From: Vibrio sp. CDRSL-10 TSBA
GTDB taxonomy: Bacteria > Pseudomonadota > Gammaproteobacteria > Enterobacterales > Vibrionaceae
Direction of reading: 5' to 3'
NCBI GenBank assembly: GCA_039696685.1
Contig: CP155566.1
Coordinates: forward strand, 2,666,001 to 2,730,000
DNA length: 64,000 nucleotides
Under the pieces are notes generated by a model that made no database searches, was not told the origin of the DNA, and worked only from the letters and a program-made list of their open reading frames with translations. This document shows positions 107 to 62,361 of this stretch, one piece after another. Made by a program: the position numbers and the translations under genes. Position 1 is the first letter of the stretch, and each line of letters opens with the position of its first letter.

Positions 107-1247
107 TTAGTGTTGAACAAGAGCGAGTACGGCCTGCGCCGCCTGCTGGTCGGCGTCTTTACGAATCCAGTGATGCATCTGGTCAAATTTATCCAGCATC
201 ACCCGGTTGTCGCTGTCGAGTAACTGGCTGACTTCCCGGTAGAGGTTATCCACGGTGCAGTCATCCTGCAGCAGCTCTTTGACCAGCTCCTGCTCGGCAA
301 GAATATTCGGCAGCGAAACGTACTTGGTTTTAAGCAGTCGTTTAGCCAGAAATGCCGTGATAGCATTGACCCGGTAACCAACCACCATAGGGCGTTTGAG
401 CAGCATGCACTCCAGCGCAACCGTCCCCGACGCCAGCAACACCGCGTCGGATGCCGTAATCACATTACGCGCGGTATCATCGACCAGAAACAAAGTGCAG
501 TTCAGGGGCTATCGCCTGCCAGGCCGCTTCAAATTGTTCACGTCGTTTCTGATTGACCAGAGCGACAACAAAACCGAGGTCCGGATAACTCTGCTGCAAA
601 CGCTGACAGGTGCGAATAAACGGCTCGGCCAGCATTTTCATCTCACTGCCCCGGCTGCCCGGCAGCACAGCCAGCCAGCGCTTCGCCGGATCAAGGCCCA
701 GCAGTTGCTGCGCCGCCTGCTGATCACTCTGGAAAGGAATCGCATCGGCCAGGGTATGACCAATAAACTCACACGGCACATTAAATTTATCGTAGAAGGC
801 TTTCTCAAACGGCAGAAACGCCAGTACCAGATTGGTCGCAGCTGCAATTTTAAAGATGCGCTTCTGGCGCCAGGCCCAGACAGACGGACTGACGTAGTGC
901 ACGGTTTTGATCCCGGCCTGCTTAAGATCGAGCTCAAGGCGCAGATTGAAATCCGGCGCATCGATACCGACAAACACATCCGGCGGATTAGTGGTGAAAT
1001 ACTTAACCAGCTCTGCTTTGACTTTAAGCAAACGCGGCAGACGTCCAAGCACTTCCACCAGTCCCATCACCGCCAGCTCTTCCATATCAAACAGAGACTG
1101 ACAGCCCTGGGCCATCATCTTCGGACCACCAATGCCGACAAACTCAGCATCCGGATAGCGGGCTTTAACGGCTTTGATAAAGCCCTCGCCCAGGGTATCA
1201 CCGGATAGCTCACCTGCCACAATGCCGATACGTAGTGGTTTTTTCAC
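107..1247 (-). CDS. lpxB: Lipid-A-disaccharide synthase (apparent frameshift)
   Basis: LpxB joins UDP-2,3-diacylglucosamine and lipid X into the lipid A disaccharide at the inner face of the inner membrane. The start is a GTG at 1247-1245 with GAGGACA upstream, giving [20 protein letters not shown], the conserved LpxB N-terminus. The reading frame breaks at GAAAC 487-491. Dropping one A there joins APELHFV to [14 protein letters not shown] and restores a 379-residue protein of normal family length, with the downstream motif [12 protein letters not shown]. The gene is essential for lipopolysaccharide, so a true break is unlikely. It sits between lpxA and rnhB. Confidence 0.93.
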
Positions 1248-1353
1248 GCCGAATGTCCTCTATAAAACTAACTTATGCATTTTGGGCAGCAGCTTTGAGA
1301 AAAAGCGGCTGTCCAAAAAACATGACGCACAAAACACGCCGGGCTATAAAACA

Positions 1354-1388
1354 CAAAAAGACCGTCCGCAGGCGGACGATCTTTTTCC
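1354..1388 (-). terminator. Intrinsic terminator between lpxA and lpxB
   Basis: Arms CGTCCGC (1363-1369) and GCGGACG (1372-1378) are flanked by A and T runs on both sides, so it could act in both directions. On the minus strand it follows lpxA and is followed by five T, suggesting partial termination before lpxB. Confidence 0.7.
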
Positions 1389-1407
1389 ATCATCGGATTA
1401 GCCGAGC

Positions 1408-2197
1408 TTAGCGGATAATGCCACGCTCAGAGCTCTCCAGCAGGTCAACAAAGCTCTGCACAGATGACCACTCAGCCGCCATCTCTTTCAGTACGACCAG
1501 GGCTTCAGCCTGAGTTTTACCGGCGCGGTAGATCTCTTTGTACGCTTTTTGCAGAGCTCGAATTTCTGCTTTTTCAAAGCCGTTACGCTTAAGACCAACC
1601 AGGTTAAGACCAAACGGAGACGCATGGTTACCCTGCGCCAGCACGTAAGCCGGTACATCCTGAACCACGGCAGAACAGCCGCCGATGTAGGCATAAGCGC
1701 CGACTGAGCAGAAACGGGTGAATCGCTGACAGAGCCATGACACCTGCGTAATCATGCACGGTCACGTGACCGCCCAGAATCGCGTTGTTACCAATGTGCG
1801 TGTGGTTGCCCACAATCACATCGTGCGCAATGTGCGCATTAACACATAGCAGGTTGTCGTTGCCGACCACGGTTTCGTGTTTATCCTGCGTGGTACCACG
1901 GTGGATCTGGACTGCTTCACGAATGACGTTACGGTCACCGATGATAACGCGCGTATCTTCGCCGCCGTACTTCTTGTCCTGGTTCTCTTCACCAATGACA
2001 GCATGCGGGAAAATGCGGTTGTCTTTGCCGATTACTGTGTTGCCTTTGATCACAACATGCGACATCACTTCCGTGCCTTCACCAATGGTGACGCCGGCAG
2101 TAATGTAAGTAAATGGCCCAACCGTGACATTAGCGCCAATCACTGCGCCGTCTTCGACCACCGCTGCCGGGTGGATTTGTGCCGTTTCGTGGATCAT
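1408..2197 (-). CDS. lpxA: UDP-N-acetylglucosamine acyltransferase (apparent frameshift)
   Basis: LpxA performs the first step of lipid A synthesis, moving a 3-hydroxyacyl chain from acyl-ACP to UDP-GlcNAc. The start giving [10 protein letters not shown] at 2197 is the family start and leaves one base after the fabZ stop. Left-handed beta-helix hexapeptide repeats fill the N-terminal two thirds (for example [14 protein letters not shown]), and the C-terminus carries [17 protein letters not shown] and ends in ERGIIR. The frame breaks at GAAAC 1711-1715, within the segment GVMALSAIH to [11 protein letters not shown]. Removing one base gives 262 residues, the normal length. Confidence 0.94.
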
Positions 2198-2198
2198 A

Positions 2199-2657: not shown

Positions 2658-2700
2658 ATTCCTATTTATCAATACAAAAATTAATTAGGGCATTATAGAC

Positions 2701-3790: not shown

Positions 3791-4301
3791 TTATTTAATT
3801 GCTTTGATAACTTGTTCGGAAATATTGTACTCAGGCTTGCCGTATTGCATTGCACTCACGTCAATGATCATATCGTAGCCATCTTTTTCCGCTACTTTTT
3901 GTACTGCATCCTGAATCACTTTGAACAGTTTTTGCTTCTCTTCTGCTTCACGACGCTTAGACGCTTGATCCAGTGCCTGAGCTTTGATCTTGTATTTGCT
4001 GTCCAGCTGACCAATCTCAATACGCAGTTTCTCTACGTCTGCTTCGCTCATCAGTTTCTGAATCGCGTTTCAGTTTCTCGATTTTGGTCTTAGCTTCAGC
4101 CTGAATGCTTTGCAGTTCAGCCGCTTTATCCTTGAACTCTTCCTGCATCTTTTGCAGAACCACATCACGCTGTGGCAGAGCCTGGAAGACTTGTGCAGTG
4201 TTAATGAAACCCACTTTTTGCGCAGCTTCAGCCGCCTGCGCAATAAATGAAGAGCTGAGTACAATAAGGCTAACACCTGCAGCTTTGATGATGTTTTTCA
4301 A
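3791..4301 (-). CDS. skp: Periplasmic chaperone Skp/OmpH (apparent frameshift)
   Basis: Skp is a trimeric periplasmic chaperone that holds unfolded outer-membrane proteins on their way to the BAM complex. Residues 1 to about 23 form a signal peptide (MKNIIKAAGVSLIVLSSSFI, then AQA). The rest is a charged coiled-coil (for example ELQSIQAEAKTKIEKLKRD) typical of the tentacle helices, ending with ISEQVIKAIK. The frame breaks at GTTTC 4054-4058 (mRNA sense CAGAAACTG). Removing one A joins KRDSE to LMSEADVEKLRIE and gives 169 residues. The gene lies 14 bases after bamA, a standard pairing. Confidence 0.93.
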
Positions 4302-4315: not shown

Positions 4316-6731
4316 TTAGAAGGTTCGTCCGATTGTGAAAGTGAAGAATTCTTCGTCGTCACCTTCGTATTTCTCAATAGGTTTCGCCAGTGAGAACACC
4401 AGTGGTCCCATCGGCGACATCCATTGCAGCGCCACACCGTAAGATGAGCGGTAGTTGGTTGGATCCGAGTAATCGTAGTAATAGTTAGCACCGTAAGCGG
4501 CACCACCATCACGGTAGTCAAATTCGGTATCCCACACGCTGGCCATATCGTAGAAAATACTGGTACGAATCTGGTTACGTGCTTCATCCGATGCGAAAGG
4601 CGTCGGAACGATCAGCTCCACGCTGCCGAGGGCAACCGCGTTACCGCCCACTGAATCATCGGTCGCGGTATCCGCACCGTTGTTCGAGCCGGAGTAATCA
4701 CGATACACCGCTTTAGGACCAGCAGAGTTCGAGCCAAATCCACGCAGCGAGGTAAAGCCACCTGCGTAAAAGTTTTCATAGAACGGATAGAGGTTATCTT
4801 TGCCGTCGGTCTGACCATAGCCGTTACCGTAACCTAAGCGGCCACGCAGTAACAGCGTAAACTCATGCTTTTTGGTCAGCGGAATGTACTGACGCACATC
4901 ATATTGCAGTTTAAAGTACTTGGCATCCGAGCCAGGTACGGTCATTTTGGCCGACGCACGCTGATAGTTACCTGCGGTCGGGAAGTAACCTTTATTAAGG
5001 TTATTGCGGGTCCAGGCCACGTTGATATCAAAGTCATCGGTGATCAGACTGCCGTCTGAGTCCATGTTGCTTTCCTGAGCACGCAGGAACTGCTCAACCT
5101 GCAGGTAAGGCGTCAGGTTACCGATCTTGTTGTGGGTGTAGCCGACACCAAACTCAAAACGGTTCAGTTCATCAAACGGGAAACCCCAGGTCAGACTGGT
5201 GCCGTAACTTTCGTTGGTATAGTCAACAATACCGGCTTCTGATGCTTCAAACTTGTTGAAGAACACTTTGCCGCCCAGGCTGACGCCGTCGATGTTCCAG
5301 TACGGGTCACGATATTCCAGCGTGATGTTACGCTGATAATCGTTGGTGGTCGCGTTAATACCAACCCGGTTACCGGTACCAAGGAAGTTATCCTGAGTCA
5401 GACCCACGGTAAAGCTCACGCCTGATTCGGTACCGTAGCCAACACCAAAGTTGACGCTGCCCGAGTTGGCTTCTTTGACGTTATACACCAGGTCAACCTG
5501 GTCATCAGTACCCGGTACACGTACCGTCTGCACATCAACGGTTTCAAAGAAACCAAGACGGTTGAGACGGGCTTTACCGGTATCAATCGCTTTCGAGTTC
5601 AGCCAGGAGCCTTCCATCTGACGCATCTCACGGCGCAGTACTTCATCTTTGGTCGCATTGTTACCGACAAAACGGATATCACGTACATACATACGTTTGC
5701 CCGTTTCAACGTTAATCACCAAAGATACCTGCTGTGTTTCATCGTCAAATTCAGGAATAGTCCGCACCTGAGGATAAGCATAACCTGCTTCACCCAGTTC
5801 ACGTTTGATTGACTCTTCCAGCTGTGTCACCGCCGACCCCTGATAGGTTTCACCCATCTCAAACGGGATCATGGCTTTAAAGTCATCTTCTTTGCCAATC
5901 AGCTCACCACGGAATTTGACATCCTTCACCGTATAAGGCTTACCCTCGTTGAGGTTCATGGTGATATACACACCCTTTTTATCGGGTGAGATAGAAACGT
6001 TGGTCGAGTCCACCTGGAACTTGAGGTAACCACGATCGAGATAGAAGGAGCGCAGCGCTTCAATATCACCGGCCAGAAACCTGCTTCTGATATTTATCAT
6101 CAGACAGGAAGTTCCACCACGCGACATCCACATTAAGATTAAAACGCGAGCGCAGCTCTTCATCTGAGAAGACATCATTACCGATAAAGTTGATCTGCTG
6201 AATTTTAGCCGAGACACCTTCGGTGAAGACAAATTTCAGGTCGGCACGGTTACGTGGCAGCGGTGTGACAACCGCTTTAACCGTGGCGTTGTATTTACCT
6301 ACACTGTAGTAGAAATCTTCCAGGCCCTTTTCGATGTTGCTCAGCTTAGTGCGATCCAGTGCCTCACCAACGCGAATGCCGGAAGCATCCAGGTTCTGTT
6401 GCAACTGCTCTTCTTTAATCGCCTTGTTGCCGGAAAAAGAGACGCTAGCAATTGTCGGACGCTCTTTGACCTGCACCATCAAAGTATCGCCGTCACGCAG
6501 CACTTTGACATCTTCAAAGTTACCGGAGGCGTAAAGGGCTTTAATGATCTCGGCCACGTCCTGAGAATCCACGGTATCGCCAACCCGTACCGGCATTTTC
6601 AATAATGCGGCACCCAGCGCTACGCGTTGCAAACCCTCAATCTGAATGTCCTGCACAACAAAGTTTTCGGCACTGTGCGCTGACACGCTTGTTGCGAGCA
6701 GTGTCGCGAACAGGATTTTTTTCATTGCCAT
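4316..6731 (-). CDS. bamA: Outer-membrane protein assembly factor BamA (apparent frameshift)
   Basis: BamA is the essential Omp85 channel that inserts beta-barrel proteins into the outer membrane. The N-terminus ([18 protein letters not shown]) is a signal peptide; MAMKK at 6731 or MKK at 6725 are both possible starts. Five POTRA repeats follow, then the barrel, with the Omp85 L6 motif near [16 protein letters not shown] and a C-terminal aromatic residue (FTFTIGRTF) as required for assembly. The frame breaks at GAAAC 6076-6080. Removing one base joins DDKYQKQV to [17 protein letters not shown] and gives 804 residues. Confidence 0.96.
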
Positions 6732-6779: not shown

Positions 6780-8139
6780 TCACAGGCGAGTAAAATCGTT
6801 AAATATTGCCACGGCCATCAGAGAGAAAATGATCATACCACCGATGCGGTAGCCCATTTCCTGTACTCTTTCCGGTACCGGACGACGAATGACAGCCTCA
6901 ATGGCAAAAAACAGCAGGTGGCCGCCATCAAGCATCGGCAGAGGAACCAGATTAATGATCCCTAAGTTAACGCTGATCAACGCCAGAAAACCAAGGAAGT
7001 AGACCAGACCGTAATCCGCGGTCGTCCCGGCCCCTTTGGCAATCGAAATCGGGCCACTCAGGTTATTCAGGCCGACATCCCCTACCAGCAGTTTTTTCAG
7101 CATGCTGATCGTCAGATCAATAATCTGCCCGGTTTTATCAACCGCTTTTCCGATCGATTCAAATACACCAAATTGCAGTTCAAATCGATAATTTTCCGGC
7201 CAATCTGCGATTTTTGGCGCAATCCCCGCAAAACCAATCACTTTTCCTTGAGACAGCTCTCGCGCCTGTGGATTCAGCTCTACCGACAGGCTCTGCTGAT
7301 CACGCTCAAGGTCAAGCGTCAAGGATTGCTCAGGGTGTGCCTGAATCGCCTCAACCACCTGTTGCCAGTCTGTAATCGGCTGACCGTCAATGCGGGTCAG
7401 CACATCCCCTACCTGTAATCCGGCGCGCTCTCCGGCTCCGCCGGCAGACACACTGGTCAACTCCGGCGAAATTGCAGGGGTAAATGGATTAAATCCAAGC
7501 GCTCCCATAGCAGACTCTGATTCAGGATCAAAGTTCCAACTGCTCAGGTCAAAAGTTTTGATTTCGTCGACACCGACACCGTCTGGTGAAGAAACCGTCA
7601 TCGTCATGCGCTGATCGCCAATATGGGAAATCAGCCCCATGTTCACCGATTCCCAGTCCGGCGTTTCCACCCCGGAGACGGATTTAATTTCCATCCCCGA
7701 CTGCAGGCCGGCATCGGCAGCGATCGAATACGGGGTTACAGTACCGACCACCGGCTTAACGGCCGGGATGCCGATCATAAATACCAGCCAGTAGGCAAAC
7801 ACGGCAAAGATAAAGTTAAATGCCGGACCGGCACTGACAATCGCACTGCGTTGCCAGAGCGGCTTTTTATCAAACGCAAACTGCTGCTGTTTCTGGCGCT
7901 ACATCATCGACACGCCCGTCGAGCATCTTGACGTAACCACCCAGCGGAATCATGGCAATACTGTACTCAGTGCCATCTTTACCGATCCGTTTCCAGATAG
8001 ACTTACCAAAGCCGATCGAGAATTTTTCGACCCGGACACCACATTTTCTTGCTACCCAGAAATGGCCGTATTCATGCACAGCCACCAAAATGCCCAGGGC
8101 AACAATAAACGACACCAGATTCCACAATATGCCACTCAT
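6780..8139 (-). CDS. rseP: Site-2 protease RseP (apparent frameshift)
   Basis: RseP is the inner-membrane zinc metalloprotease that cleaves anti-sigma factor RseA to release sigma E, and also clears signal-peptide remnants. The HEYGH zinc motif is near residue 22 in the first membrane segment; two PDZ domains follow ([16 protein letters not shown] and [18 protein letters not shown]), and the third zinc ligand lies in [16 protein letters not shown]. The frame breaks at GTTTC 7889-7893 (mRNA CCAGAAACAG). Removing one A restores [17 protein letters not shown] and a 452-residue protein. Its start overlaps the dxr stop by four bases, suggesting translational coupling. Confidence 0.95.
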
Positions 8140-9345
8140 AACAATCGCTCTTTTAACTCCTGAGATGCCAGACTGCGAGCCATTGTATCCAGCTCCAACA
8201 GGCTTTCCAAGGTATAGGAATGTAACGGATTATTCATGCCGCAAATTTTAGACAACACCTGCTGGTTAATAGTTGCGATATCAGTAAACCGGATTTGACC
8301 GTTCAAAAATGCCTCAACCGCCACCTCATTCGCCGCATTGAGTGAAGTCGTGGCATGCTGGCCTTCGTAGCAGGCGTCGATGGCCAGCTTAAGACACGGA
8401 TAGCGCTGGTAATCGACATCCATAAAAGTCAGTTCACTCAAACGGGTAAAATCAAGCGGAGCCACTCCGGCTCCGACCCGCTCCGGATACGCCAGAGTAT
8501 GAGCAATCGGTGTCGCCATGTCCTGCTCACCTAGCTGGGCAATCACAGAACCATCACGGTACTGCACCATGGAGTGAATCACCGACTGGGGATGAATCAG
8601 CACTTTGAGCTGCTGCGGCGCCGCGTTAAACAGCCATTTGGCTTCAATAAATTCCAGACCTTTATTCATCATAGTGGCGGAATCGACCGAAATTTTGGGC
8701 CCCATCGACCAGTTTGGATGGGCGATCGCCTGCTGCGGCGTCACATCAGATAACGTGTTGATATCACTATAACGGAAAGGACCACCGGAGCCGGTCAGCA
8801 GAATGTGAGAAACGCCGCTTTGGGCAAGATCACAACGTCCGAGACGAGTCTGAATTTCCACTGGCAGGCACTGGAAAATCGCATTGTGCTCGCTGTCGAC
8901 CGGCATCAGCTCTGCGCCGAACTCTTCCACTGCGTCAATAAACAGCTGGCCGGACATCACCAGGGCTTCTTTATTGGCGAGCAGAAACGCGTTTACCGGC
9001 TTTGACCGCGGCCATGGTCGGCAGCAGCCCTGCTGCACCGACAATCGCCGCCATCACGGTGTCGACTTCATCGCAGGCAGCAACCTGACACATAGCGTCA
9101 GTGCCGTACAGCACCTCGACATTCAGCTTAAGTTCACGCAGTTGCGCCTGCAGTGTCTGCGCGGCTTGCGCCGTGGCCATCACCGCATATTTCGGCTGCC
9201 AACGCTGGCAAAGCTCACGCATTTTGTCAACATTGCCACCTGCCGCCAGTGCGACCACGGTAAATTGTTCAGGATTCTCTGCGACTACCTTGAGCGTACT
9301 GGCTCCGATTGAACCCGTTGCCCCCAGAATCGTTAATTTACGCAT
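8136..9345 (-). CDS. dxr: 1-deoxy-D-xylulose 5-phosphate reductoisomerase (apparent frameshift)
   Basis: Dxr (IspC) makes 2-C-methylerythritol 4-phosphate with NADPH, the committed step of the non-mevalonate isoprenoid pathway. The chosen start gives [18 protein letters not shown], with the NADPH-binding GATGSIG. Catalytic and substrate motifs follow the break: [18 protein letters not shown] and [13 protein letters not shown]. The frame breaks at GAAAC 8984-8988. Removing one base joins AVKAGKRV to [12 protein letters not shown], giving 402 residues. The gene is essential in Vibrio, and it feeds uppS two genes downstream. Confidence 0.95.
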
Positions 9346-10255: not shown

Positions 10256-11009
10256 CTATGATTCCATCAGTGCCTTAACCTGCTCACCAGTGCAGCCGAA
10301 TCGGCGCTCGCGGTTCACAAACCAGGTCACTGCTTCAATTAAGCTGTCTTCACCAAATTCAGGCCAGTATTGCGGCGTGAAATACATTTCTGCATACGCC
10401 AGCTGCCACAACATAAAGTTGCTGATGCGGCATTCACCACTGGTGCGGATCAACAGGTCCACTTCCGGAATATCGGCCATGGTCAGATGCTGGGTAATCA
10501 TGGCTTCATCAATCTGCGATGGATCCACTTCACCGCATGCGACCTTACGGGCGATTTCACGTGTGGCCTGAGTAATGTCCCACTTACCGCCATAGTTGGC
10601 GGCAATATTGACCACCAAACCGGTATTATTGGCAGTCAGGGCTTCCGCCTGGGCAATTTTTTTCTGCAGCCGCTCACTAAAACGACGTGTGTCGCCGATG
10701 ATACGGAGACGCAGGTTATTCTTGTGCAATTTTTTGACTTCGGTCGACAGAAACTGTGATGAACAGCTCCATTAACACACCGACTTCTTCTTCAGGACGA
10801 CGCCAGTTCTCGCTGCTGAATGCAAAGAGGGTGACCGCTTTGATGCCTAGTTTCGCTGCAGTAGAGATGGTTTTTCGAACAGCTGAGACGCCATTTTTAT
10901 GGCCGAAGACTCGAGGTTTACCTTGCGCTTTCGCCCAGCGCCCGTTGCCATCCATAATGATTGCAATGTGCTGAGGTAAAACATCTGAAGAGAGTTGCGA
11001 ATTTTGCAT
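10256..11009 (-). CDS. uppS: Undecaprenyl diphosphate synthase (apparent frameshift)
   Basis: UppS condenses isopentenyl diphosphate onto farnesyl diphosphate to make the C55 lipid carrier for peptidoglycan and O-antigen. The N-terminal [19 protein letters not shown] holds the catalytic Asp and GNGRW. The C-terminal [20 protein letters not shown] and FTPQYWPEF are family motifs. The frame breaks at GAAAC 10750-10754. Removing one base joins LMELFITV to [20 protein letters not shown], giving 250 residues. It lies between frr and cdsA as in other gammaproteobacteria. Confidence 0.95.
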
Positions 11010-11701: not shown

Positions 11702-12431
11702 TTAAGCGGAGGTAATCAAAGTACCTTCCGTCTCACCCATCACTACGCGGCGCAGAGCGCCAGGTTTGTTCATGTTGAAGACACGGATTGGCATCTTGTG
11801 GTCACGAGCCAGAGTAAATGCCGCCAAATCCATAACTTTCAATTCTTTCTCAAGTACATCGTTGTATGCGAGCTTATCATACAGCTGTGCGTCTGGGTTG
11901 GCTACCGGGTCTGCACTGTAAACGCCGTCGACTTTTGTCGCTTTGAGAACTATGTCCGCTTCAATTTCGATACCACGCAGACATGCAGCCGAATCAGTAG
12001 TAAAGAACGGGTTACCGGTACCTGCAGAGAAGATCACCACTCGGCCCTGACGCAGTTGGCTAATCGCATCTGCCCAGTTGTAGTCATCACACACACCGTT
12101 CAGAGGAATTGCTGACATTACGCGTGCGTTTACATAAGCACGGTGCAGTGCGTCACGCATTGCCAGACCATTCATTACTGTTGCCAACATGCCCATGTGG
12201 TCACCCACAACGCGGTTCATACCAGCTGCAGCCAGACCAGCACCACGGAACAGGTTACCGCCACCGATAACAACGCCAACCTGAACACCAAGTTCTACCA
12301 GTTCCTTGACCTCCTGCGCCATGCGATCAAGAAACGGTTGGATCGATACCAAAACCTTCTTCGCCTTGAAGCGCTTCACCGCTAAGTTTTAACAGAATAC
12401 GTTGATATGCTGGTTTAGGGTTCGTTGTCAT
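11702..12431 (-). CDS. pyrH: Uridylate kinase (apparent frameshift)
   Basis: PyrH phosphorylates UMP to UDP and is essential. The true start is the ATG at 12431, giving [20 protein letters not shown], which matches the family, rather than any internal start. [11 protein letters not shown] then runs into GAAAC 12331-12335 (mRNA ACCGTTTCTTGATC), where removing one T gives [17 protein letters not shown]. Further motifs are [13 protein letters not shown], the ATP-binding part, and [19 protein letters not shown] near the end. The corrected length is 242 residues. The same insertion type as its neighbours, here preceded by AA rather than CA. Confidence 0.95.
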
Positions 12432-14708: not shown

Positions 14709-15552
14709 ATGTCTGTAATTATTAAAACTGCTGAAGAAATTGAAAAAATGCGCGTAGCCGGCCGTCTGGCGGCTGAGGTTCTGGAAATGATTGAACCTCA
14801 TGTTAAGGCGGGCGTAACGACCGAAGAAACTGGATCAGATCTGTCACAAGTACATCACTGAAGTTCAGGGCGCAATTCCGGCTCCTCTCAATTATCACGG
14901 TTTCCCTAAATCTATCTGTACGTCAATCAACCACATCGTCTGCCACGGCATCCCGGCAGAGCAAGACACTGCTTACGGCCAGATCACCCGCCCGGCAGTG
15001 CTGAAAGATGGCGATATCATGAACATCGACATCACAGTGATTAAAGATGGCTATCACGGTGATACCTCGAAGATGTTCCAGGTCGGTGAAGTTGCTCCGG
15101 CGGATAAGCGCCTGTGCCTGGTTGCGCAGGAATGTCTGTACCTGGCACTGAAAAAAGTCAAACCGGGTACACAACTGGGTGAGATTGGTACCGCGATTGA
15201 AAAACACATCAAGACCAACAACAAGAATAACCCGCGCCTGAAATTCTCTATCGTGCGTGATTACTGTGGCCACGGCATCGGTGCCGGCTTCCATGAAGAG
15301 CCACAAGTTGTGCACTACCGCAACAGCGACCGCACAGTGCTGCGCGAAGGAATGATTTTCACCATCGAGCCGATGATTAACGCCGGTAAGTTCGGCTGCC
15401 GTCTGGATGATGAAGATAACTGGACCGTTTACACCGCCGACGGCAAAAACTCGGCGCAGTGGGAACACACCATTCTGGTCACCGCAGACGGCTGCGAAAT
15501 CCTGACCCTGCGTGAGGAAGAGAGCATCCCACGCGTGTTCCACAACGCATAA
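14709..15552 (+). CDS. map: Methionine aminopeptidase (apparent frameshift)
   Basis: Map removes the initiator methionine from nascent proteins and is essential. The N-terminus MSVIIKTAEEIEKMRVAGRL is typical of type I enzymes. Metal ligands are visible: Asp in MNIDITVIKDGYHGDTSKMF (two), His in YCGHGIGAGFHEEP, Glu in FTIEPM and the last Glu in QWEHTILVT. The frame breaks at GAAAC 14826-14830. Removing one A changes TEETGSDL to TEELDQICHKYITEVQGA, joining to the conserved YHGFPKSICTSINHIVCHG. Corrected length 280 residues. It is divergent from rpsB, as usual. Confidence 0.95.
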
Positions 15553-33032: not shown

Positions 33033-33593
33033 TTAAAGGGCTGTTTCGCTCAGATGGACGTGTTTGTGAACATCGCCATTTAATTCGCGGCCTTTGATCA
33101 AAAAGAACAGGTTTGCGATCAGCTCAGTGGAATATTCGGCGATAAAGATGATGGCAGACACGGTAATCATCAGCCAGAAGTGGTGCATCGCAGGCGCCCA
33201 CTCACTCTGAGTTTTATAGTTAAACTCCAGGGCTTCAAAAAACATACTGCCGCAGGTTTTGGCCATCACCGCCAAGAAACCAATCGCCAGGATGCCGGTC
33301 AGGACATCAAAAACACGGCGGGTCTTCTCTGACACTTTGGCGTGGACAATATCCACGTTAATGTGTGCTTCGCGCTGCTGTGCATACGCGCCGCCAAGGG
33401 CTGCAATGTAACCGAATAAAAACAGTGACGTGTCGTAACCCCAGATGGTCGGTTTGTTTAACACATAACGGGCAAACACTTCATAGAATACGATCGCAGC
33501 CAAAACGGGAAGCAAGTACGACACTGAGCGTCCAATCAGACTGACGATGTATTTCGTGAATTGGCAATACCTCAGTAAAATGGCTTCAAGCAT
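33033..33593 (-). CDS. TRAP transporter small membrane subunit DctQ-like
   Basis: The small TRAP subunit supports the DctM channel. The 186-residue protein has four membrane segments (about residues 15-35, 52-70, 92-112 and 136-158) with the typical WGYDTSLFLFGYIAALGGAY and REAHINVDIVHAKVSEKTRR. It ends in a charged His-rich tail (VHKHVHLSETAL). It lies between dctP and dctM; a hairpin terminator separates it from dctP. Frame intact. Confidence 0.92.
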   Translation of the reverse strand: MLEAILLRYCQFTKYIVSLIGRSVSYLLPVLAAIVFYEVFARYVLNKPTIWGYDTSLFLFGYIAALGGAYAQQREAHINVDIVHAKVSEKTRRVFDVLTGILAIGFLAVMAKTCGSMFFEALEFNYKTQSEWAPAMHHFWLMITVSAIIFIAEYSTELIANLFFLIKGRELNGDVHKHVHLSETAL

Positions 33594-46076: not shown

Positions 46077-47646
46077 TTAGCTTAATTTGTGTGGCAAAGG
46101 AGAGCCTGTATGGTTTTTCTGTTTGCCAGCTTGCCAGTCGACCACTTGATAGCGATTCCGCCCGGTATGTTTGGCCTGATACAAAGCAGCATCCGCATGA
46201 TGGAATAAGTGCAGATAATCATCGAGTCCCGCTTGAAACGCTTTGACGCCACCGATACTGACAGTAACCGTTTCTCCTAGAGGGGAACTTTGGTGTGGGA
46301 TCGCCAACTGACGGATCTGTGCACATAATTGCGCGGCATAATGGCTGATATTAGGCTCACTATCGCCAGCCAACACGACACAGAAACTCTTCACCGCCAA
46401 AACGGGCGACCACTTTATCGCCACTAAAGTCGATCTGCTCCAAAGCCTGGGCAACTGATTTAAGCACCTCATCGCCCTCAAGATGGCCGTAGTAGTCGTT
46501 ATACAACTTAAAGTAATCGACATCGATCAGATAGACCGCTAACCAGTCATATTTGAGTTCAGCAATAAAGTGTTTCAGTTGCCGCTCCAGCTTACGCCGG
46601 TTGGAAAGTCGGGTCAGAGGATCGTGATCAGATTGCCAGCGCAATTTATTGCGGCTCTCTTCAAGCTCAGCAAAAATCCGATTAATTGCACGGGCAAAAT
46701 CCTTCATTTCACGCGATACAAACAAGCTTTCGTCCGGCATTTTACCGCGTGACGCTTTAAAATTCTCCAGCGCCATATTAGCTTGGGTAATCGGCCGCAC
46801 CAGATAACCGACCATGAGTAAGCTGACAAAGAACAGCAACAGCGAGAAAGCGATCAATGCGATAATTTCGTCAGTGCGAATAAAATCGGGCAGCTTCACT
46901 TTATGCCACAACTTGATCAGCACACTCGCATGGCCCTGAAAATCAAGCGGAGTAAGGTAAGTCACATTGACTTGCTTAGCAGGTAAAGAAGTAAAAGGCG
47001 CCCGACTCAGGACATCAATATCAGTCCCGGTTGCCTGTTCGACCACGCTCTCAAACTGGCTGCGTACCTTCTTCATAAAGATCAGAAAACCTTTGTCACA
47101 GTTCAATCCTTCGCTGTCACATACCCTTGATGCTGCGGCCAGATAAGGCTCCTGATCGATGACGACGAAACGCACTTTCGGATCAACCATGTCAGCCGAA
47201 GAGCGCTGCGACTCACGCAGCATGACCGGGAAATAAGGAATAAAGCTGTCATAGCCGATCTGCTGACCGGCTTCATCATCATATTGCATCCCCCACACCA
47301 GACTGGCATCGGGAGCAAAAATGAATATCCCGTCCAGTGACTGGGAAGTAAACGCATGAATGCCGATACTGTCTTCAACAAAGCTGGGATCAGGCGAAAC
47401 AATATAATCGGCCATGTCATTCCAGGCCGCATAGTCCGCCATCGAGCTGCCCATCTCCTTCTTTTCCAACGCAATCACGGTTTCGACCCGCTTGGTCTCT
47501 TCATGCTGCAAAAGCAGAGCATGTTGCGTCTCACGTTCAAATGACCAGAAATATTTAAACGTGAGATAAAAAAACACAAAACAGACCACCACACAGGTGG
47601 CGGTAATCGCGGTTAACCAACGAATACTGATATTGGAAAGTAACAT
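46077..47646 (-). CDS. Membrane diguanylate cyclase with CHASE4-like sensor (apparent frameshift)
   Basis: A GGDEF protein likely makes cyclic di-GMP in response to a periplasmic signal. Layout: TM1 near residues 8-30, a periplasmic domain with DYAAWNDMADYIVSPDPSF, typical of CHASE4, TM2 near residues 260-282, a HAMP-like linker, then GGDEF (DHDPLTRLSNRRKLERQL, VARFGGEEF). GGEEF is an active signature; five residues upstream the sequence is FSGD, so no RxxD inhibitory site. The frame breaks at GAAAC 46383-46387 (mRNA GAGTTTCTG); removing one T gives GGEEFCVVLAGDSEPNI. Corrected length 522 residues. Confidence 0.92.
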
Positions 47647-47697: not shown

Positions 47698-47699
47698 TT

Positions 47700-48633: not shown

Positions 48634-49699
48634 TCAAAAAAAACTCAGTTGCCGGATCTGATCTTCCGGCTTTAACATTACGCTCAATCCAAGCAACCGA
48701 ATTTCGCGTCCTTTTTGCCGTTTGAGCACCTCGCTCAGCAACAGCTTAAAATCTTCCAGTTCAAGCTGTGGGTGAATGTGCTCTATGGTGGTCTGCTGAA
48801 AATCGGCGAACTTCACTTTAATCCCCTGCTTGATGATACCGCGCTCGGCCGCGGCGCGGGTCAGACGAGCATCCAGTTCAGGGTAGAGACGCTGCTCAAT
48901 CACCTGCCAGCACTCCTCGTAAGTCGAAATATTGTGGCTGAAGGTTCGCTCGACCCCGACCGACTTGCGCTCGCGTTCAACCACGACTTCTCGCTCATCA
49001 ATGCCGTGGCTTTTCTTCCATAACGACGCTCCCAAGCGACCAAAGCGGCGCAGCAGCTCCCGGTAGTCACTGTTCTTAATATCTTCGCACACAAAAAAAC
49101 CGGCCTGATTGAGCTTTTCCAGGCTGACTTTGCCGACCCCGGGTATCTTGCCCAGAGGCAGCTTATCGACCACGTCCTGAACCTGTTCCGGCGTCACCAC
49201 ATAACAGCCGTTAGGTTTGTTGATATCGGAGGCGACTTTGGCAAGAAACTTAACCGGAGCAACCCCGGCCGATGCGGTCAGATGCAGCTCATTCCAGATA
49301 TCGCGCCGGATGGCTTCAGCAATCAGAGTCGCGCTACCGTGGCAAGCCGGTGATTCGGTGACATCCAGGTAGGCTTCATCCAGCGACAATGGCTCAATCA
49401 AATCGGTATAGCGCTGAAAAATAGCATGAATCTGGCGGGAAACGTCTTTATAAACCGACATGCGCCCGGGAAACCACCAGCAGGCCCGGGCACAACTTTA
49501 TCGCCTGGGCCGTCGGCATCGCTGAATGCAAACCGAACTTACGGGCTTCATAGTTACAGGTGCTCAACACGCCACGCTGCTTCTCTGAACCGCCGACAGC
49601 CATCGGCCGGCCGCGGTAGTGAGGGTTATCCCTCATTTCCACAGCAGCATAGAAACAGTCCATATCAATATGGATAATTTTACGAATCCGCTCGGCCAT
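48634..49699 (-). CDS. dinB: DNA polymerase IV (apparent frameshift)
   Basis: DinB is the Y-family translesion polymerase induced by DNA damage. Motifs: [20 protein letters not shown] with the first metal Asp, [10 protein letters not shown] with the catalytic Asp-Glu, [20 protein letters not shown], and the helix-hairpin-helix [15 protein letters not shown]. The C-terminus ends DQIRQLSFF, a beta-clamp binding motif (QLSFF). The frame breaks at GAAAC 49470-49474 (mRNA GTGGTTTCCC). Removing one T gives [18 protein letters not shown]. Corrected length 354 residues. A LexA box lies upstream. Confidence 0.95.
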
Positions 49700-50567: not shown

Positions 50568-51576
50568 TTAATTACGGTTGAGATAAGGCTTGAAAGCACT
50601 TGATGCGACTTCTTTAAAACCATCGTCAGTCTTTACAATCATAAAGACCGGAACCTGGTTTTGTTCCGCAATCTCAATTCCTTTTTTATCGCCTAATACC
50701 ATCAGGCCGGTCGCCAGACCATCGGCCGTCATACAGGACTTATCTAATACGGTAACAGATACTACACGGTTATGTATAGGACGCCCAGTCTGTGGATCGA
50801 TAATGTGCGAGTAACGGACACCATCACGTTCAAAGTAATTGCGGTAATCACCGGAGGTGGCAATCGCCATGTCGCCCGGCTCAATGATTTCCTGCACGCT
50901 ACGTTCATCAACGGTTGGTTTCTCCACCGCAATACGCCACGGCACACCATCACGGTTAAGGCCTTTGAGCCGGATTTCTCCGCCGACTTCCACCATGTAG
51001 TTGTGAATGCCCTCTGATTGCAGATAGTCAGCAACCACATCCACACCCCAGCCTTTGGCAATCGTTGACAGGTCAACATACAGATGCGGCAGATCTTTAC
51101 TCAGCTTATTACCATCCACACTCAGATGATGAATACCGACATTCGCCTTACGCTCGGCCAGTTTCCTCGTCACTCGGTACCACTTCCGGACGTGCCTCAG
51201 GGCCAAAGCCCCACAGATTGACCAGAGGACCGACGGTCACATCCAGTGCGCCTTGCGTCACCTGATTAAGACGAATCGCCTCTTTCACCACGGTCGCAGT
51301 CTGCTCAGAAACCTCATACGGATCCGTACTCTGATGCTGATTAAAACGACTCAGCTCTGAATCCTTACGGTAGGTCGACATCTGGTCGTTGACCTGCTCC
51401 AGCAAGCGATCCACTTCGGTTTGCAAATCTTGTGACGACGGCTGGCCGTCCTGAACTATGTATTTAATGTTGTAGGTCGTGCCCATAGTCGGGCCACTTA
51501 AATGCACTTGCTGAGGTGGCTGCTCACAACCAGCCAACAGCATTAAGGATGCGAATGCAACAAGCCAGGTTTTCAC
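50568..51576 (-). CDS. apbE: FAD:protein FMN transferase ApbE (apparent frameshift)
   Basis: ApbE attaches FMN to Thr residues of NqrB and NqrC in the periplasm. The N-terminus is a lipoprotein signal (MKTWLVAFASLMLLAGC) with Cys at residue 17. Motifs: MGTTYNIKYIV, VDLSTIAKGWGVDVVADYLQ, and SHIIDPQTGRPIHNRVVSVT with TADGLATGLMVLG. The frame breaks at GTTTC 51161-51165 (mRNA GAGGAAACTGG). Removing one A joins VPSDEE to LAERKANVGIHHL, giving 335 residues. It follows nqrF, and its substrates are encoded three and four genes upstream. Confidence 0.95.
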
Positions 51577-51768: not shown

Positions 51769-52993
51769 TTAACCACCGAAGTCATCCAGCAGGATGTTTT
51801 CGTCTTCAACACCAAGGTCTTTCAGCATACCGATAACGGCGGCGTTCATCATTGGTGGACCACACATGTAGTATTCACAATCTTCAGGCGCATCATGGTC
51901 TTTCAGATAGTTTTCGTACAATACGTTGTGGATGAAGCCAGTGTAACCATCCCAGTTGTCTTCCGGCGTAGGATCAGACAGTGCACAATGCCAAACGAAG
52001 TTATCGTTCTCGCTTTGCAGCATGTCGAAGTCTTCTACGTAGAACATTTCACGACGTGAACGTGCACCGTACCAGAAAGACATCTTACGTTTAGATTGCA
52101 GACGTTTCAGTTGGTCGAAGATATGTGAACGCATCGGAGCCATACCAGCACCACCGCCGATAAAGACCATTTCTGCGTCAGTATCTTTGGCGAAGAACTC
52201 ACCGAACGGACCAGAAATTGTACACTTATCACCTTCTTTCAGTGACCAGATGTAAGAAGACATTTGGCCTGGTGGTACGTCTGGGTTGTTTGGCGGCGGA
52301 GTCGCGATACGCACGTTCAGCATGATGATGCCAAACTCTTCCGGGTAGTTAGCCATTGAGTATGCACGGATGATTGGCTCATCCACTTTAGACTCGTAGC
52401 GGAACAGGTTGAATTTATCCCAGTCACCACGGAATTTTTCCGGTACGTCGTAATCGGCGTACTTAACATGGTGAGCAGGTGCTTCAATCTGAATGTAACC
52501 ACCAGCACGGAAAGGTACTGATTCGCCATCCGGGATCTGCAATTTCAGTTCTTTGATGAAAGTCGCTTTGTTATCGTTAGAGATAACAGTACATTCCCAC
52601 TTCTTAACACCAAAGATCTCTTCCGGCAGTTCCAGTTCAAGATCGTTTTTCACTGCAACCTGACAAGCCAGACGCTCACCTTCACGCGCTTCACCTTTAG
52701 TAATATGGTCAAGCTCGGTAGGGAGAATGTCGCCACCGCCAGATTTAATTTTCACACGGCACTGACCACAAGAGCCACCACCACCACAAGCAGACGAAAC
52801 GAATACGCCAGAGCCCGCCAGGGCACCCAGCAGCTTACCGCCTGGTTGGGTCACGATCGCTTTTTCAGGATCGCCATTGATAGAGATTGTAATGTCACCT
52901 GTTGGTACCAGCTTAGATTTGGCGAACAGAATCACCAGAAACCAGAGCCAGAACAATCAGAGTAAACATCACTACACCAAGAATAATGTCCAT
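51769..52993 (-). CDS. nqrF: Na(+)-NQR subunit F (apparent frameshift)
   Basis: NqrF is the NADH-oxidising subunit with FAD and a 2Fe-2S cluster. The ATG at 52993 gives [18 protein letters not shown], a membrane anchor. The ferredoxin motif [20 protein letters not shown] is near residue 68, the FAD site [11 protein letters not shown] near 210, and the NADH site [14 protein letters not shown] near 275. The frame breaks at GAAAC 52938-52942 (mRNA CTGGTTTCTGG). Removing one T restores [18 protein letters not shown], giving 407 residues. A GAAC 52951-52954 just 10 bases away is untouched. Confidence 0.96.
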
Positions 52994-53630: not shown

Positions 53631-54264
53631 TTACTCCTTCGCTTCTACTTGTTCAGGTTTGAAGGTACGGATCGTCCAAATCAGGAAACCGATTAAGAAG
53701 AATGCTGAAGGTGCCAGTAGCATCAGACCATTTGGCTGGTACCAGCCACCTTTGCTGATCAGAGGCAGCACTTCCAATCCGAACACTTTGCCTGAACCCA
53801 GCAGCTCACGGAAGAAGCCCACAGTGATCAGTACAAAACCGTAACCCAGACCGTTAGCGATACCATCGATGAACGACGGAACCGGTGCTGACTTCATCGC
53901 GAATGCTTCTGCGCGACCCATTACAATACAGTTAGTAATGATCAGGCCAACGAATACCGACAGCTGTTTAGAGATGTCGTACAGGTATGCTTTCAGGATT
54001 TGGTCTACCACGATTACCAGTGATGCGATGATCGCCATCTGAACGATGATACGAACACTGCTCGGAATGTGGTTACGGATCAAAGACACGAAAAAGTTAG
54101 ACAGAGCAGTAACAAACATTACCGCCAGAGTCATAACGAATGCCGTTTCCAGCTTAGTCGTTACTGCCAGAGCAGAACAGACACCAAGAAACTTGCAGCG
54201 CGATTGGGTTGTTATCCAATACCGGCGCGACAATGCTCTTTTTAAGATCTTTTGCGCTAGCCAT
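53631..54264 (-). CDS. nqrD: Na(+)-NQR subunit D (apparent frameshift)
   Basis: NqrD pairs with NqrE around the iron centre. The ATG at 54264, overlapping the nqrC stop by one base, gives [20 protein letters not shown]. Conserved Cys occur in [20 protein letters not shown] and [20 protein letters not shown]. The frame breaks at GAAAC 54188-54192 (mRNA CAAGTTTCTTGG), 25 codons in. Removing one T gives [16 protein letters not shown]. Corrected length 210 residues. A GAAC at 54175-54178, only ten bases away, is unaltered. Confidence 0.96.
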
Positions 54265-56270: not shown

Positions 56271-57612
56271 TTACCCTTCCTTCTCAATCTTGTCCAAGCA
56301 CTCACGCAGAAGCTGACCGTACTCGTACTTACCCGGACATACAAAGGTACACAGCGCTAGATCTTCTTCGTCCAGTTCCAGTGCGCCCAGTGCTTGCGCA
56401 CTGTCGGAGTCACCGGCACAAAGATCACGAAGCAACAGAGTCGGCTCCATGTCCAGCGGCAATACTTTTTCATAGTTACCGATTGGTACCATTGATCGAT
56501 CACTACCGTTCGTCGTTGTGGTCATGTTGAACAGCTGACCTTTGAACAGGTGACCCAAGAAGGCACGGGTGACTGAGAATTTGTTCTTACCCGGCATAGC
56601 CCAGCCCAGGAAGTCCTTCTCGCGACCTTCACGCAGTACAGAGACTTGCAGATGGTAGCGACCAAGGTAAGCATGAGGACCAGACGCTTTCACACCAGAC
56701 AGCACAGAGCCAGAGATAACACGCACTTCACCAGGCATGATTTCATTGCTGGTCAGTTGGTCAAGGCTTGCACCTAAAACGGTACGGATAAGACGTGGTT
56801 TGTTTACGACAGGGCCAGCCAGTGACACAACGCGCTCACTAAACAGTTCGCCAGTCAGGAACAGCTTACCAATCGCGATAACGTCTTGATAATTGATGCT
56901 CCAAGCCACTGTTTCTGCATTTACCGGATACAGGAAATGCATGTGAGTGCCAGGCAAACCGGCAGGGTGAGGGCCGTCAAAGACGTGCTCTTCTACGTTT
57001 GACTGAGAAGAACGTGGCAGGCTGTTGCCTTTCTTACACACGTAAACTTTGCCTTCAGTCAGAGCAGACAGCACATCCAAGCCAGCAACGAAGGCTTCGG
57101 ATTGCTCATTGATGATCACCGCCGGCTCTGCTGCCAATGGATTGGTGTCCATTGCCGTAACAAAGATTGCCTTAGTGGTGGAATCAATAGCGGGAACCTT
57201 GCTGAACGGACGAGTACGCAGCGATGTCCAAAGACCAGATTCAACCAGTTGAGTTTTCACCGCTTCACGGTCAAGACTAGCTAGCTGATTGGCTTCAAAC
57301 TTGTTGAAAGTTACCTGGTCATCACCTGCTACTTCAATCACTACGGATTGAAGAACACGTCTTGCACCACGGTTGATTTCAACAACTTTACCGCTGACAG
57401 GTGAAGTAAACAGAACCCCTGGATTCTTCTTATCTTCAAAAAGAAACTTGAGCTTTCTTTACTTCATCACCTACGCGAACATGCATCGTAGGACGCATGC
57501 CAACGTACTCTTCGCCAAGCAAGGCGACTTTGTTGATGGCTTTGCCATCACTAATCACCTGGGATGGAGTTCCTGCGATAGGAAGGTCCAAACCCTTTTT
57601 TATTGTAATCAT
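56271..57612 (-). CDS. nqrA: Na(+)-NQR subunit A (apparent frameshift)
   Basis: NqrA is the first, peripheral subunit and contributes to the quinone site. The start at 57612 gives [20 protein letters not shown]; a longer reading to 57675 adds unconserved residues. Other landmarks: [33 protein letters not shown] and the C-terminal [23 protein letters not shown] segment. The frame breaks at GAAAC 57443-57447 (mRNA CAAGTTTCTT). Removing one T gives [18 protein letters not shown]. Corrected length 446 residues. Confidence 0.95.
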
Positions 57613-59763: not shown

Positions 59764-59808
59764 GCATTTAAGCATTTAAGCATGCTCACTAAACGAAAGG
59801 AATTGACC

Positions 59809-60385
59809 ATGAAGAAACTGGTTCTCGCGGCGTCTATCGCTCTGTTGACGGCGTGTTCAGCCCCTCAACAGCCACAGCTTAACTTTATGCCTCAGCCAGT
59901 GCTGAGCCGCAGCGACATTGTCAAAAACAGCACCTTTACGCTGGTCAGTAAAGATGTTCGCTCTGCGCAGTACGTCGCTTTGGTTGACAGTGGTCGCAAT
60001 AACATTGAACCGGTCCATGCCAAGCAGAAACGTACGTATCGCACTGGAAAATGCCCTGTCTGAACAGTTCGCTTCTCAAGGCTTCCAGTTGACAGTGAAC
60101 AGTGAAAACACCGTGACGCTGGAAGTTCAGGAAGCTCTGGTTAACGTCACTCACTCCATTTTTGAAAACCAGATGGATGCAAAAGTAACCCTGGAACTGA
60201 CCGCAGAAACGCCACAAGGCAAACTGGTAAAAAGCTACAACGGCACAGCAAAACGTACGGCTGCACTGAGCGCATCTGACGAAGACATCGAGAACGTACT
60301 TAACGATGTGGTGAACTTAGTGCTCAAAGAGATCTCTAATGACAAAGAATTGCAAACTTACATGAAGGACCGTTTCCGTGGCTAA
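59809..60385 (+). CDS. yajG: YajG-family lipoprotein (apparent frameshift)
   Basis: The ATG at 59809 follows GAAAGGAATTG and gives MKKLVLAASIALLTACSAPQ, a lipoprotein signal with the acylated Cys at residue 16. The mature protein has the YajG pattern (LVSKDVRSAQYVALVDSGRN). The frame breaks at GAAAC 60027-60031. Removing one A joins PVHAKQ to NVRIALENALSEQFASQGFQ. Corrected length 191 residues. In E. coli yajG lies next to ampG, and here ampG is two genes on. Role unknown; envelope maintenance is likely. Confidence 0.9.
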
Positions 60386-60923
60386 ACTGTGGCTAACGGC
60401 ACTGGCGCTGCTCAGCAGCGCTGTATGGGCCGGACCGAAAGTAGAATTTGAAACGACACTGGGTAATTTCACTGTCGAGTTGAATGATGAAAAAGCACCG
60501 ATCAGCAGTGCGAACTTCCTCAAATATGTCGAAGACGGCAGTTACGTCGGTAGTCAGTTCCACCGTATCATCCCGGGCTTTATGGCTCAGGGCGGTGGCT
60601 ATGATAAAGACATGAATCAGCTCAAGACCTACGCACCGATCAAAAATGAAGCAAGCAATGGCCTGGCCAATAATACCGCGACCATTGCTATGGCACGTAC
60701 CGCGAATCCGAATTCTGCGACACGCCAGTTCTTCATCAACCTGACTGACAATAATTTCCTCGATTATAACCAACGTCCACCGGGTTACGCGGTATTCGGC
60801 CAGGTGGTTGAAGGTTTTAGTGTCATTCAGACGATGGCGAAACAGCCGACTCACTCAGTTGGCCGCATGGGCGACGTACCGCAAACTCCTATCGTGATCA
60901 CCAAAGCCACCCTCATCAAGTAA
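60378..60923 (+). CDS. ppiA: Exported cyclophilin-type peptidyl-prolyl isomerase
   Basis: The GTG at 60378 lies inside the yajG end (eight-base overlap). Residues 1-18 (MAKLWLTALALLSSAVWA) are a signal peptide, so the enzyme acts in the periplasm. The cyclophilin core has SQFHRIIPGFMAQGGGYDKD, ATIAMARTANPNSATRQFFI then NLTDNNFLD, and GYAVFGQVVEGFSVIQTM, with catalytic Arg in FHR and the Gln and Phe of QFFINL. 181 residues. Frame intact. Confidence 0.92.
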   Translation: MAKLWLTALALLSSAVWAGPKVEFETTLGNFTVELNDEKAPISSANFLKYVEDGSYVGSQFHRIIPGFMAQGGGYDKDMNQLKTYAPIKNEASNGLANNTATIAMARTANPNSATRQFFINLTDNNFLDYNQRPPGYAVFGQVVEGFSVIQTMAKQPTHSVGRMGDVPQTPIVITKATLIK

Positions 60924-60974
60924 TCTCATCAGGGCTCTGACAATTATCAGGGCCCTGGTTTTAAGGAATCATTC

Positions 60975-62361
60975 ATGCAGAGCGACCAGTCTTATACCTG
61001 GAAAGAAACCGTGCTTAGTTACTTTGACCGCCGCTTACTTTGGGTTTTCATGCTCGGCTGTTCAAGTGGTTTCCCTTGGGTGCTGATTGGATCCAGTATG
61101 TCCGGTTGGCTGACAGATGCCGGGTTAACCTTATCTGCCATCGGCTACTTTGGCAGCGTGTTCTCGGTCTACGCGATTAATTTCCTCTGGGCACCTCTGG
61201 TTGACCGGGTAAAACTACCGCTGCTGCAACCCTTGCTCGGACAACGCCGCAGCTGGATATTTTTCTGCCAAAGCCTGGTTCTGCTCTGTACACTGGCGAT
61301 TGCCAAGGTCGACCCGGCCAGTAACCTGTTGCTCACTTCCATGCTGGCACTGGCGATTGCCACCGCTTCAGCTACCCAAGACATCGCCATTGATGCTTTT
61401 CGTATCGACAGCTTTCCTAAATCAGAGCCCTCCAAACTGCCCCAGGCTTCAGCCATGGCCGTCATCGGATGGTGGACCGGCTATTCGCTGCCGGGTTATC
61501 TGGCCTTTGTCAACGCAGACCAGGTCGGCTGGAATCAGGTTTACCTCGGGATGGCCGCTATTGTGGTACTGCTGATGTTTTTTACCCTATTAGTGGGTGA
61601 GCCCAAAACCCTGCGCGATCAACTGCAACAACAAGCAGAGAGTCGTCACAGCAAGTATGTCCATTCAAAGCTCGGCCGCTGGCTGAGTGTCACTCTGATT
61701 GAGCCTTTCGTTGACTTCTTTCGCCGTAACGGCACTCAGGTGGCTCTTACCCTGTTGCTGTTCGTATTCTTGTTTAAGATTGGTGAAGCGTTTCTTGGGT
61801 CGAATGTCGATCGCCTTCTATAAGGAAATCGGTTTTAGTAATGAACAAATTGGCTATTACTCTAAACTCATTGGATGGGGAATGACCATGCTGTTTACCT
61901 TTATCGGCAGCATGTTCAACGTGCGGTTTGGTATTGTGCGCGGCCTGATGATTGGCGGCATTGCCATGTCGGCCAGTAATCTGATGTTCTCGTGGATTGC
62001 CGAAGTCGGACCAAATGAGGATCTGCTGCTGGCAACTATATTTGTCGATAACTTCACCACCGCTTTCTCTACCGTGGCATTTGTTTCCTTCCTTACCGTT
62101 GTCACCGGCCAGGCATTTTCCGCTACCCAGTACGCCTTATTAGCCTCTTTGGGTAACTTTGGTCGTACGGTATTGGCATCGTTCAGCGGCAATCTGGCAG
62201 AGATGCTCGATAACTGGTCGCTGTTCTTTATCCTGACAGCTGTCATGGTGGTTCCGAGCCTGATTATGCTTTATTCGCTGCGCCACTACTTCACAGACAT
62301 GCTGCGCAATGCCCAGCAAAAACATCAAGACGAAGTCTCATCGGTCAAGCAGAGCGATTAA
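60975..62361 (+). CDS. ampG: Muropeptide permease AmpG (apparent frameshift)
   Basis: AmpG imports anhydro-muropeptides during peptidoglycan recycling, and so affects beta-lactamase induction where present. The protein has about 14 membrane segments; the N-terminal FMLGCSSGFPWVLIGSSMSG and SATQDIAIDAFRIDSFPKSE are typical. The frame breaks at GTTTC 61790-61794 (mRNA GCGTTTCTTGG). Removing one T joins KIGEAF to LGRMSIAFYKEIGFSNEQIG. Corrected length 461 residues. Linked to yajG as in E. coli. Confidence 0.93.

Follow-up and report, generated by a model that had tools for sequence, protein, structure and literature searches.

Frame breaks at GAAAC/GTTTC in a Vibrio genome with a dnd-dpt island: a probable assembly footprint of DNA phosphorothioation

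Frame breaks in the window and across the genome

The window analysed here is a 64-kb stretch of Vibrio sp. CDRSL-10 TSBA, positions 2,666,001-2,730,000 of contig 2. The genome comprises two contigs and 4.90 Mb, with an estimated completeness of 95.9% and contamination of 4.55%. Genes throughout the window are interrupted by frame breaks at GAAAC/GTTTC (Table 1), including lpxA, lpxB, bamA, rseP, dxr, uppS, pyrH, map, thiL, ribD, nqrA, nqrD and nqrF, as named by NCBIfam. Several of these (lpxA, lpxB, bamA, dxr, uppS, pyrH and map) are essential genes. We studied these breaks together with the Dnd phosphorothioation system encoded in the same genome.

Breaks were located by tblastn with intact open reading frames of relatives as queries, a procedure blind to the motif, and the motif was counted as present when GAAAC/GTTTC lay within 15 bases of the break. 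For the window the relatives were G046 and G056. G046 queries found 23 breaks, 21 with the motif, and G056 queries found 25, all with the motif. Jointly they recovered 23 of the 24 sites listed in the original prediction. The remaining site, 52938, was unseen by tblastn and shows a one-base difference from all four relatives in nucleotide alignment. When a third relative was added and at least 20 aa were required per piece, 24 break clusters were found, 22 with the motif. All 24 listed coordinates carry the motif, and the +1 break claimed for each is borne out by intact relatives (23 by tblastn, 52938 by alignment). The claim that there were 24 in all held for those sites but not as a total, which must be raised to at least 25 because an overlooked GTTTC at 33043 also breaks a frame. 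Two breaks do not fit the pattern: 14333, a non-listed break found by G056, has the opposite shift and an N-terminal piece of 29 aa, and 11029, found by G046 only, lacks the motif and has an N-terminal piece of 20 aa.

As predicted, a minority of GAAC sites is affected, with 25 altered and 495 intact in the window. The prediction that both orientations occur in mRNA was also correct: counted from the strands, 9 of the 24 messages read GAAAC and 15 read GUUUC. Programmed ribosomal frameshifting would account for a single shared motif, but it is extremely improbable given these two different messages and relatives that hold the same genes in one frame. On the forward strand the window is unbalanced (18 GAAAC, 7 GTTTC), an imbalance gone in a wider set of 110 sites (56 and 54), from which three two-motif breaks were omitted and in which one of two motifs was picked for a fourth.

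The signature extends well beyond the window. We analysed about 464 kb of the 4.9 Mb: the window (64 kb), the adjoining 200 kb, the 40 kb surrounding dnd and 160 kb in stretches dispersed over the two contigs. In the neighbouring 200 kb, G046 queries found 62 breaks, all of them +1 (62/62) and 59 with the motif, which occurs in 9.5% of random intervals of the same width. In the joined 264 kb (window plus neighbouring 200 kb) every break was +1 (85/85) and 80 of 85 had the motif within 15 bases. Where the break could be placed within 15 bases, 64 of 65 intervals contained GAAAC/GTTTC, against 3.0 expected, and GAAAC was the most enriched 5-mer. Chance is excluded as the cause of this coincidence.

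A reference-free frame decoder gave the same picture. It was trained on G046 and G056, both of which are among the seven Vibrio genomes used for comparison, and in the window it found 18 of the 25 sites among 24 switches. At the motif it called 93 +1 switches across the 464 kb of this genome and one in 638 kb of the seven others. Broken down by stretch, the share of switches that were +1 and at the motif was 19/24 in the window, 45/61 in the adjoining 200 kb, 4/6 around dnd, 15/19 in four dispersed stretches of contig 2 and 10/14 in four of contig 1. In the seven other genomes the figure was 1 of 58, and switches of either sense with the motif nearby numbered 9 of 58, with about 6 expected. 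Enrichment at GAAAC/GTTTC, for which the original prediction proposed a genome-wide test, was seen wherever the two contigs were sampled.

Motif switches per kb were 0.125 on contig 1 (L173-L176), 0.100 around dnd (L008-L009) and 0.312 in the window. The lower rates on contig 1 and around dnd may be real, or the decoder may be less sensitive where the sequence is atypical. At the dnd loci of this genome (L008) and of a second Vibrio described below (L057), the decoder placed the motif at 1 of 2 and 0 of 1 +1 switches, respectively, which makes it a less sensitive detector than tblastn. A further example lies 315 kb beyond the window, where a PF01507 gene that we take to be cysH is split in two, the motif lying where the pieces meet (L003:2044).

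Close copies without the breaks exist for two of the genes. A separate 1,015-base contig encodes an LpxB (P0002) unbroken across the site, with 99.6% and 98.6% identity to the two window pieces. The best full-length LpxB match with a named source, from Vibrio fluvialis, has 92% identity. For DndD, a full-length protein of 670 aa matches the N-terminal piece in this genome at 97% identity.

The dnd-dpt island and the choice of sites

The original prediction expected a GAAC-type modification system elsewhere in the genome, and a dndBCDE-dptFGH island was found about 1.5 Mb from the window. A profile search detected one strong dndC in the genome (550.3 bits; cut-off, 290.4). The restriction partners dptF (475.7 bits), dptG (312.2) and dptH (1284.5, split) each scored above their NCBIfam cut-offs. 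Identity to E. coli B7A was 66% for DndB, 68% for DndC, 53 and 58% for the two DndD pieces and 64% for DndE. Phosphorothioation in E. coli B7A occurs at GAAC/GTTC (PMC9069010). The island also holds a DGQHR protein and a phosphorothioation-associated putative methyltransferase (TIGR04096), and a tRNA-Ser gene adjoins it. The methyltransferase seemed to be a short gene in L008, which the adjoining sequence ruled out: with the neighbouring stretch included it is whole, at 675 aa. No dndA was present among the 10 island proteins scanned; iscS was not searched for. By the proxy of break position, the sites do not follow the CCA motif of SspABCD-type systems, as the breaks sit at GAAAC/GTTTC. For SspD, the one PADLOC hit observed was weak and fell on DndC, with no ssp model run on the genome.

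The island itself bears the signature. The dndD frame breaks at the motif (L008:14449), and dptH breaks inside a three-motif cluster (L008:10438-10463). The sulfur-installing complex includes DndD (PMC9069010), so a real break in dndD should abolish the mark. This bears on the possibility that the breaks are real mutations, arising at hypermutable phosphorothioated sites or in decaying genes. The deposited sequence does read as broken, but on that account several essential genes would have been lost simultaneously and dndD itself would be broken. A near-identical unbroken LpxB exists, and breaks off the motif are, moreover, just 5 in 85. We give real mutation almost no credence.

The GAAC/GTTC sites that are hit differ in context from the intact ones. 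Using the 76 sites of the 264-kb set with a single motif only, 76 of 1,639 coding GAAC/GTTC sites were hit and 1,563 were intact (4.6%). By preceding base, hits fell on A in 47 of 358 sites, G in 17 of 306, C in 11 of 366 and T in 1 of 609. In the 110-site set, A directly after the core was depleted (10% vs 32%), whilst G two bases 3' of the core (54% vs 35%) and C three bases ahead of it (45% vs 26%) were enriched. At the 76 hit sites G046 has exact GAAC in 21, and in 67 of the 76 it aligns with one base fewer, compared with 5 of 480 native coding GAAAC/GTTTC sites.

These flanks, on which the original prediction said nothing, were compared with a published map and match it in part. EcoWI-seq of E. 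coli carrying the Salmonella Cerro 87 dnd cluster gave a preference for C at -2, A/C at -1, T/G at +1 and G at +2, and Cerro 87 itself has similar flank preferences (PMC9521924). A score built from this published preference alone averaged 2.41 for hits and 1.61 for intact coding GAAC (p = 6e-12), and 1.64 for native GAAAC away from breaks (p = 4e-10). The hit fraction of 4.6% is near that of nanopore error analysis in wild-type Cerro 87, where 3.9% of GTTC and 4.4% of GAAC were flagged (PMC9069010), and below the 12% obtained by EcoWI-seq.

Another GAAC-specific modification, such as adenine methylation, might mislead the base-caller with the dnd island a bystander, and candidate genes exist. 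In a profile search of the genome PF02086 matched one D12-class methyltransferase gene in two pieces (G000:C2:3095904-3096633), presumably Dam-like, and the island adds its TIGR04096 protein. By contrast, PF01555 and PF00145 had no match, in keeping with phosphorothioation, and PF02384 and PF07669 had weak matches only, in frames of 316 and 269 aa; these five families were searched and others were not. The 4.6% of sites hit is far from the near-complete use usual for methyltransferases, and the flanks fit the phosphorothioate map. That modifications cause nanopore errors at short motifs is already known (PMC10687267), but for this genome we regard another modification as very unlikely.

Table 1. 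Frame breaks in the window, with window positions, and dnd genes of the island, with positions in stretch L008.
Feature	Motif	Position	Strand	Support and remarks
lpxB break	GAAAC	487..491	+	relatives (alignment, tblastn); unbroken copy P0002 spans site
lpxA break	GAAAC	1711..1715	+	relatives
169-aa protein gene break	GTTTC	4054..4058	-	relatives (tblastn: G056); no NCBIfam match at cut-off used
bamA break	GAAAC	6076..6080	+	relatives
rseP break	GTTTC	7889..7893	-	relatives
dxr break	GAAAC	8984..8988	+	relatives
uppS-type polyprenyl diphosphate synthase gene break	GAAAC	10750..10754	+	relatives
pyrH break	GAAAC	12331..12335	+	relatives
type I methionyl aminopeptidase gene (map) break	GAAAC	14826..14830	+	relatives
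glnD first break	GAAAC	16299..16303	+	relatives
glnD second break	GAAAC	17928..17932	+	relatives
thiL break	GTTTC	19669..19673	-	relatives
ribD break	GAAAC	24478..24482	+	tblastn G056; alignment places it within a few bases
25th break	GTTTC	33043..33047	-	relatives; near C-terminus of gene 33033-33593; overlooked in original prediction
338-aa protein gene break	GAAAC	34372..34376	+	tblastn; alignment within a few bases; no NCBIfam match
MocR-like regulator gene break	GAAAC	37972..37976	+	tblastn G056; G046 puts break ~30 bases off
373-aa protein gene break	GTTTC	44210..44214	-	relatives; no NCBIfam match
GGDEF-domain gene break	GAAAC	46383..46387	+	alignment (G056), tblastn
DNA polymerase IV gene break	GAAAC	49470..49474	+	relatives
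apbE break	GTTTC	51161..51165	-	relatives; apbE match below curated cut-off
nqrF break, near N-terminus	GAAAC	52938..52942	+	alignment, 4/4 relatives; not by tblastn
nqrD break	GAAAC	54188..54192	+	relatives
nqrA break	GAAAC	57443..57447	+	relatives
200-aa protein gene break	GAAAC	60027..60031	+	relatives; no NCBIfam match
AmpG-family transporter gene break	GTTTC	61790..61794	-	tblastn; alignment within a few bases
dndB		L008:17236-18315		profile match
dndC		L008:15608-17239		profile match
dndD, two pieces		L008:14430-15599 and 13586-14299		profile match
dndE		L008:13239-13586		profile match

Other assemblies with and without the signature

Two further assemblies show the signature. The first is G140, a second dnd+ Vibrio with 78% identity at the test gene. 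All of its breaks were +1 and at the motif, both in the dnd locus (3/3) and in a second region (5/5), and the decoder placed 10 of 18 switches as +1 at the motif. The second is the dnd+ Psychrosphaera haliotis UCD-MCMsp1aY (L131, L223-L229), where the first sign was a dptH break at the motif and bamA in three pieces. The motif was present at 3 of 3 +1 breaks and at none of 6 breaks of the opposite sense, all nine within one 20-kb stretch, the sole one with a good panel match. The decoder placed the motif at 10 of 16 +1 switches (1.7 expected) and at 1 of 28 of the opposite sense (2.9 expected). Across seven dnd+ loci from other species, it put none of 10 +1 switches at the motif. Opposite-sense errors without a motif are typical nanopore homopolymer noise, and P. 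haliotis may carry two error classes side by side.

These data also bear on whether base-calling or polishing could fail at GAAC even in unmodified DNA. In favour of such a fault is the lack of the signature in most other dnd+ genomes. Against it, 95% of coding GAAC is unbroken and TGAAC was hit once in 609 sites. All three affected assemblies are dnd+, though two of them were found via dnd+ loci only. Furthermore, tblastn shows no +1 motif break in 16 dnd- Vibrio loci or in the relatives G046, G056, G116 and G033, a negative weakened by one +1 motif switch that the decoder finds in G046 and by the relatives' unknown platforms. A modification-free fault is thus, in our judgement, very unlikely.

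Break clusters without the motif made up 11 of 16 clusters in Vibrio dnd+ loci, with up to five in the draft G057, and 2 of 2 in dnd- loci. Eight other named dnd loci likewise have breaks without the motif, with single-query support except in L115 and L152. In a dnd+ Vibrio (G173), a motif-less break at L059:4997-5001 lies in a gene matching the phosphorothioation-associated methyltransferase of other dnd loci. In Vibrio variabilis CAIM 1454 (L152), length and position place a motif-less break in dndB. L205 (G038) has the same length and break place and is probably the same contig.

Proposed origin of the breaks

Taken together, the breaks are very probably base-calling errors at phosphorothioated GAAC that became fixed in the assembly. 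A DndBCDE system of GAAC/GTTC type, encoded in the genome with its DptFGH restriction partner, would exchange backbone oxygen for sulfur on both strands, at a minority of GAAC/GTTC sites selected by their sequence. Native DNA would then have been read on a long-read platform, most likely nanopore but possibly PacBio, and the altered signal would have been called as one extra base at the motif. With the mark present on most molecules at those sites, the error would have persisted into the consensus. The genes would be intact in the cell, and the broken frames would chart some of the modified sites. Direct observations are the frame breaks with their motif, +1 sense and flanks, the dnd island and the unbroken close copies of lpxB and dndD; from this sequence evidence we infer that the system is active, that these sites are phosphorothioated and that the error arose in sequencing. 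The interpretation in the original prediction is supported, its link to phosphorothioate chemistry and to the sequencing platform being the inferred part.

Several observations weigh against this explanation. In the 264 kb, 5 of 85 breaks have no motif within 15 bases. One is the break at 37972, imprecisely placed by G046, and three have N-terminal pieces of 20, 23 and 35 aa. The fifth, with pieces of 77 and 104 aa, is unexplained (G000:C2:2625384-2625401, or 159384-159401 of joined L061-L070). C before GAAC, favoured in the published map, is not enriched here (11/366; 20% vs 21% in the 110-site set), whilst G140 differs from this genome in having C before the motif at 6 of 10 decoder sites (L057, L162-L165), possibly a difference in site choice. 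No source is stated for the unbroken LpxB P0002. What was drawn on here from PMC9069010 describes errors and signal shifts without a statement that the error is an insertion.

The remaining adverse points concern rarity. The Vibrio set comprised all 29 loci above the dndC cut-off among 196 genomes, and 27 of these lack the signature. Two affected loci among 29 dnd+ and none among 16 dnd- are too few to show an association by genome. Tests on 80 of the 243 confirmed named dnd loci found 79 to lack the signature, the exception being P. haliotis L131. It is also missing from six E. coli dnd regions, B7A and five more, as their annotated dnd/dpt genes are not flagged as broken. The five were chosen for one-base length differences among 60 of 214 records, with comparison partners; a dndC match occurs in 204 of 5,426 E. 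coli genomes. RefSeq excludes heavily frameshifted assemblies, which may hide cases. As most dnd+ genomes lack the signature, a dnd system alone does not produce it. Such rarity would follow if the effect were confined to unpolished long-read assemblies of native DNA.

The modification system is of a known kind. It resembles DndBCDE-DptFGH of E. coli B7A and Salmonella Cerro 87 in gene content, DndB-E identity (53-68% to B7A), GAAC/GTTC core and partial site use, and differs from that type in having no dndA among the island proteins scanned. Like the Cerro 87-type map, it disfavours T before the core and favours T/G after it; unlike in that map, A but not C is favoured before the core, and modification here is read from errors only. 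Nanopore detection of phosphorothioate (PMC9069010) likewise found errors at about 4% of GAAC/GTTC motifs in native DNA, but as a read-level signal against amplified DNA, whereas here the +1 break is fixed in a finished assembly. In Listeria, strain-specific modification also causes systematic errors at one motif in long-read assemblies, there mainly mismatches at GCAGC or GCTGG, with GCAGC linked in four strains to the methyltransferase-encoding mza system (PMC10687267). The words phosphorothio and dnd are absent from the main text of that paper. Among the matches listed in a literature search of titles and the starts of abstracts, phosphorothioate-caused insertions in finished assemblies were not described. 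What is new is the +1 footprint that is fixed in assemblies and can serve as a map of modification.

Finished public assemblies of dnd+ bacteria may hold fossil phosphorothioate maps, in which +1 breaks at GAAC within otherwise clean coding sequence would mark the modified sites. Dnd site choice could then be compared between species with no further experiments, a reading that we consider somewhat more probable than not; here the rule would be longer than GAAC, with A favoured and T nearly forbidden before the core and G favoured two bases after it. If so, some public genomes would carry hundreds to nearly two thousand false breaks resembling gene decay (by extrapolation for this genome, 0.125-0.39 per kb over 4.9 Mb), and these may inflate contamination estimates. 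Each break would be a modification call, offering a cheap screen for active GAAC-type phosphorothioation. The calls would also supply independent evidence on the partial use of sites by Dnd, which PMC9521924 describes as a longstanding puzzle.

Rfam matches in the window were t44 RNA at 14316-14415 (-) and Vibrio RNA AS9 at 22672-22775 (+).

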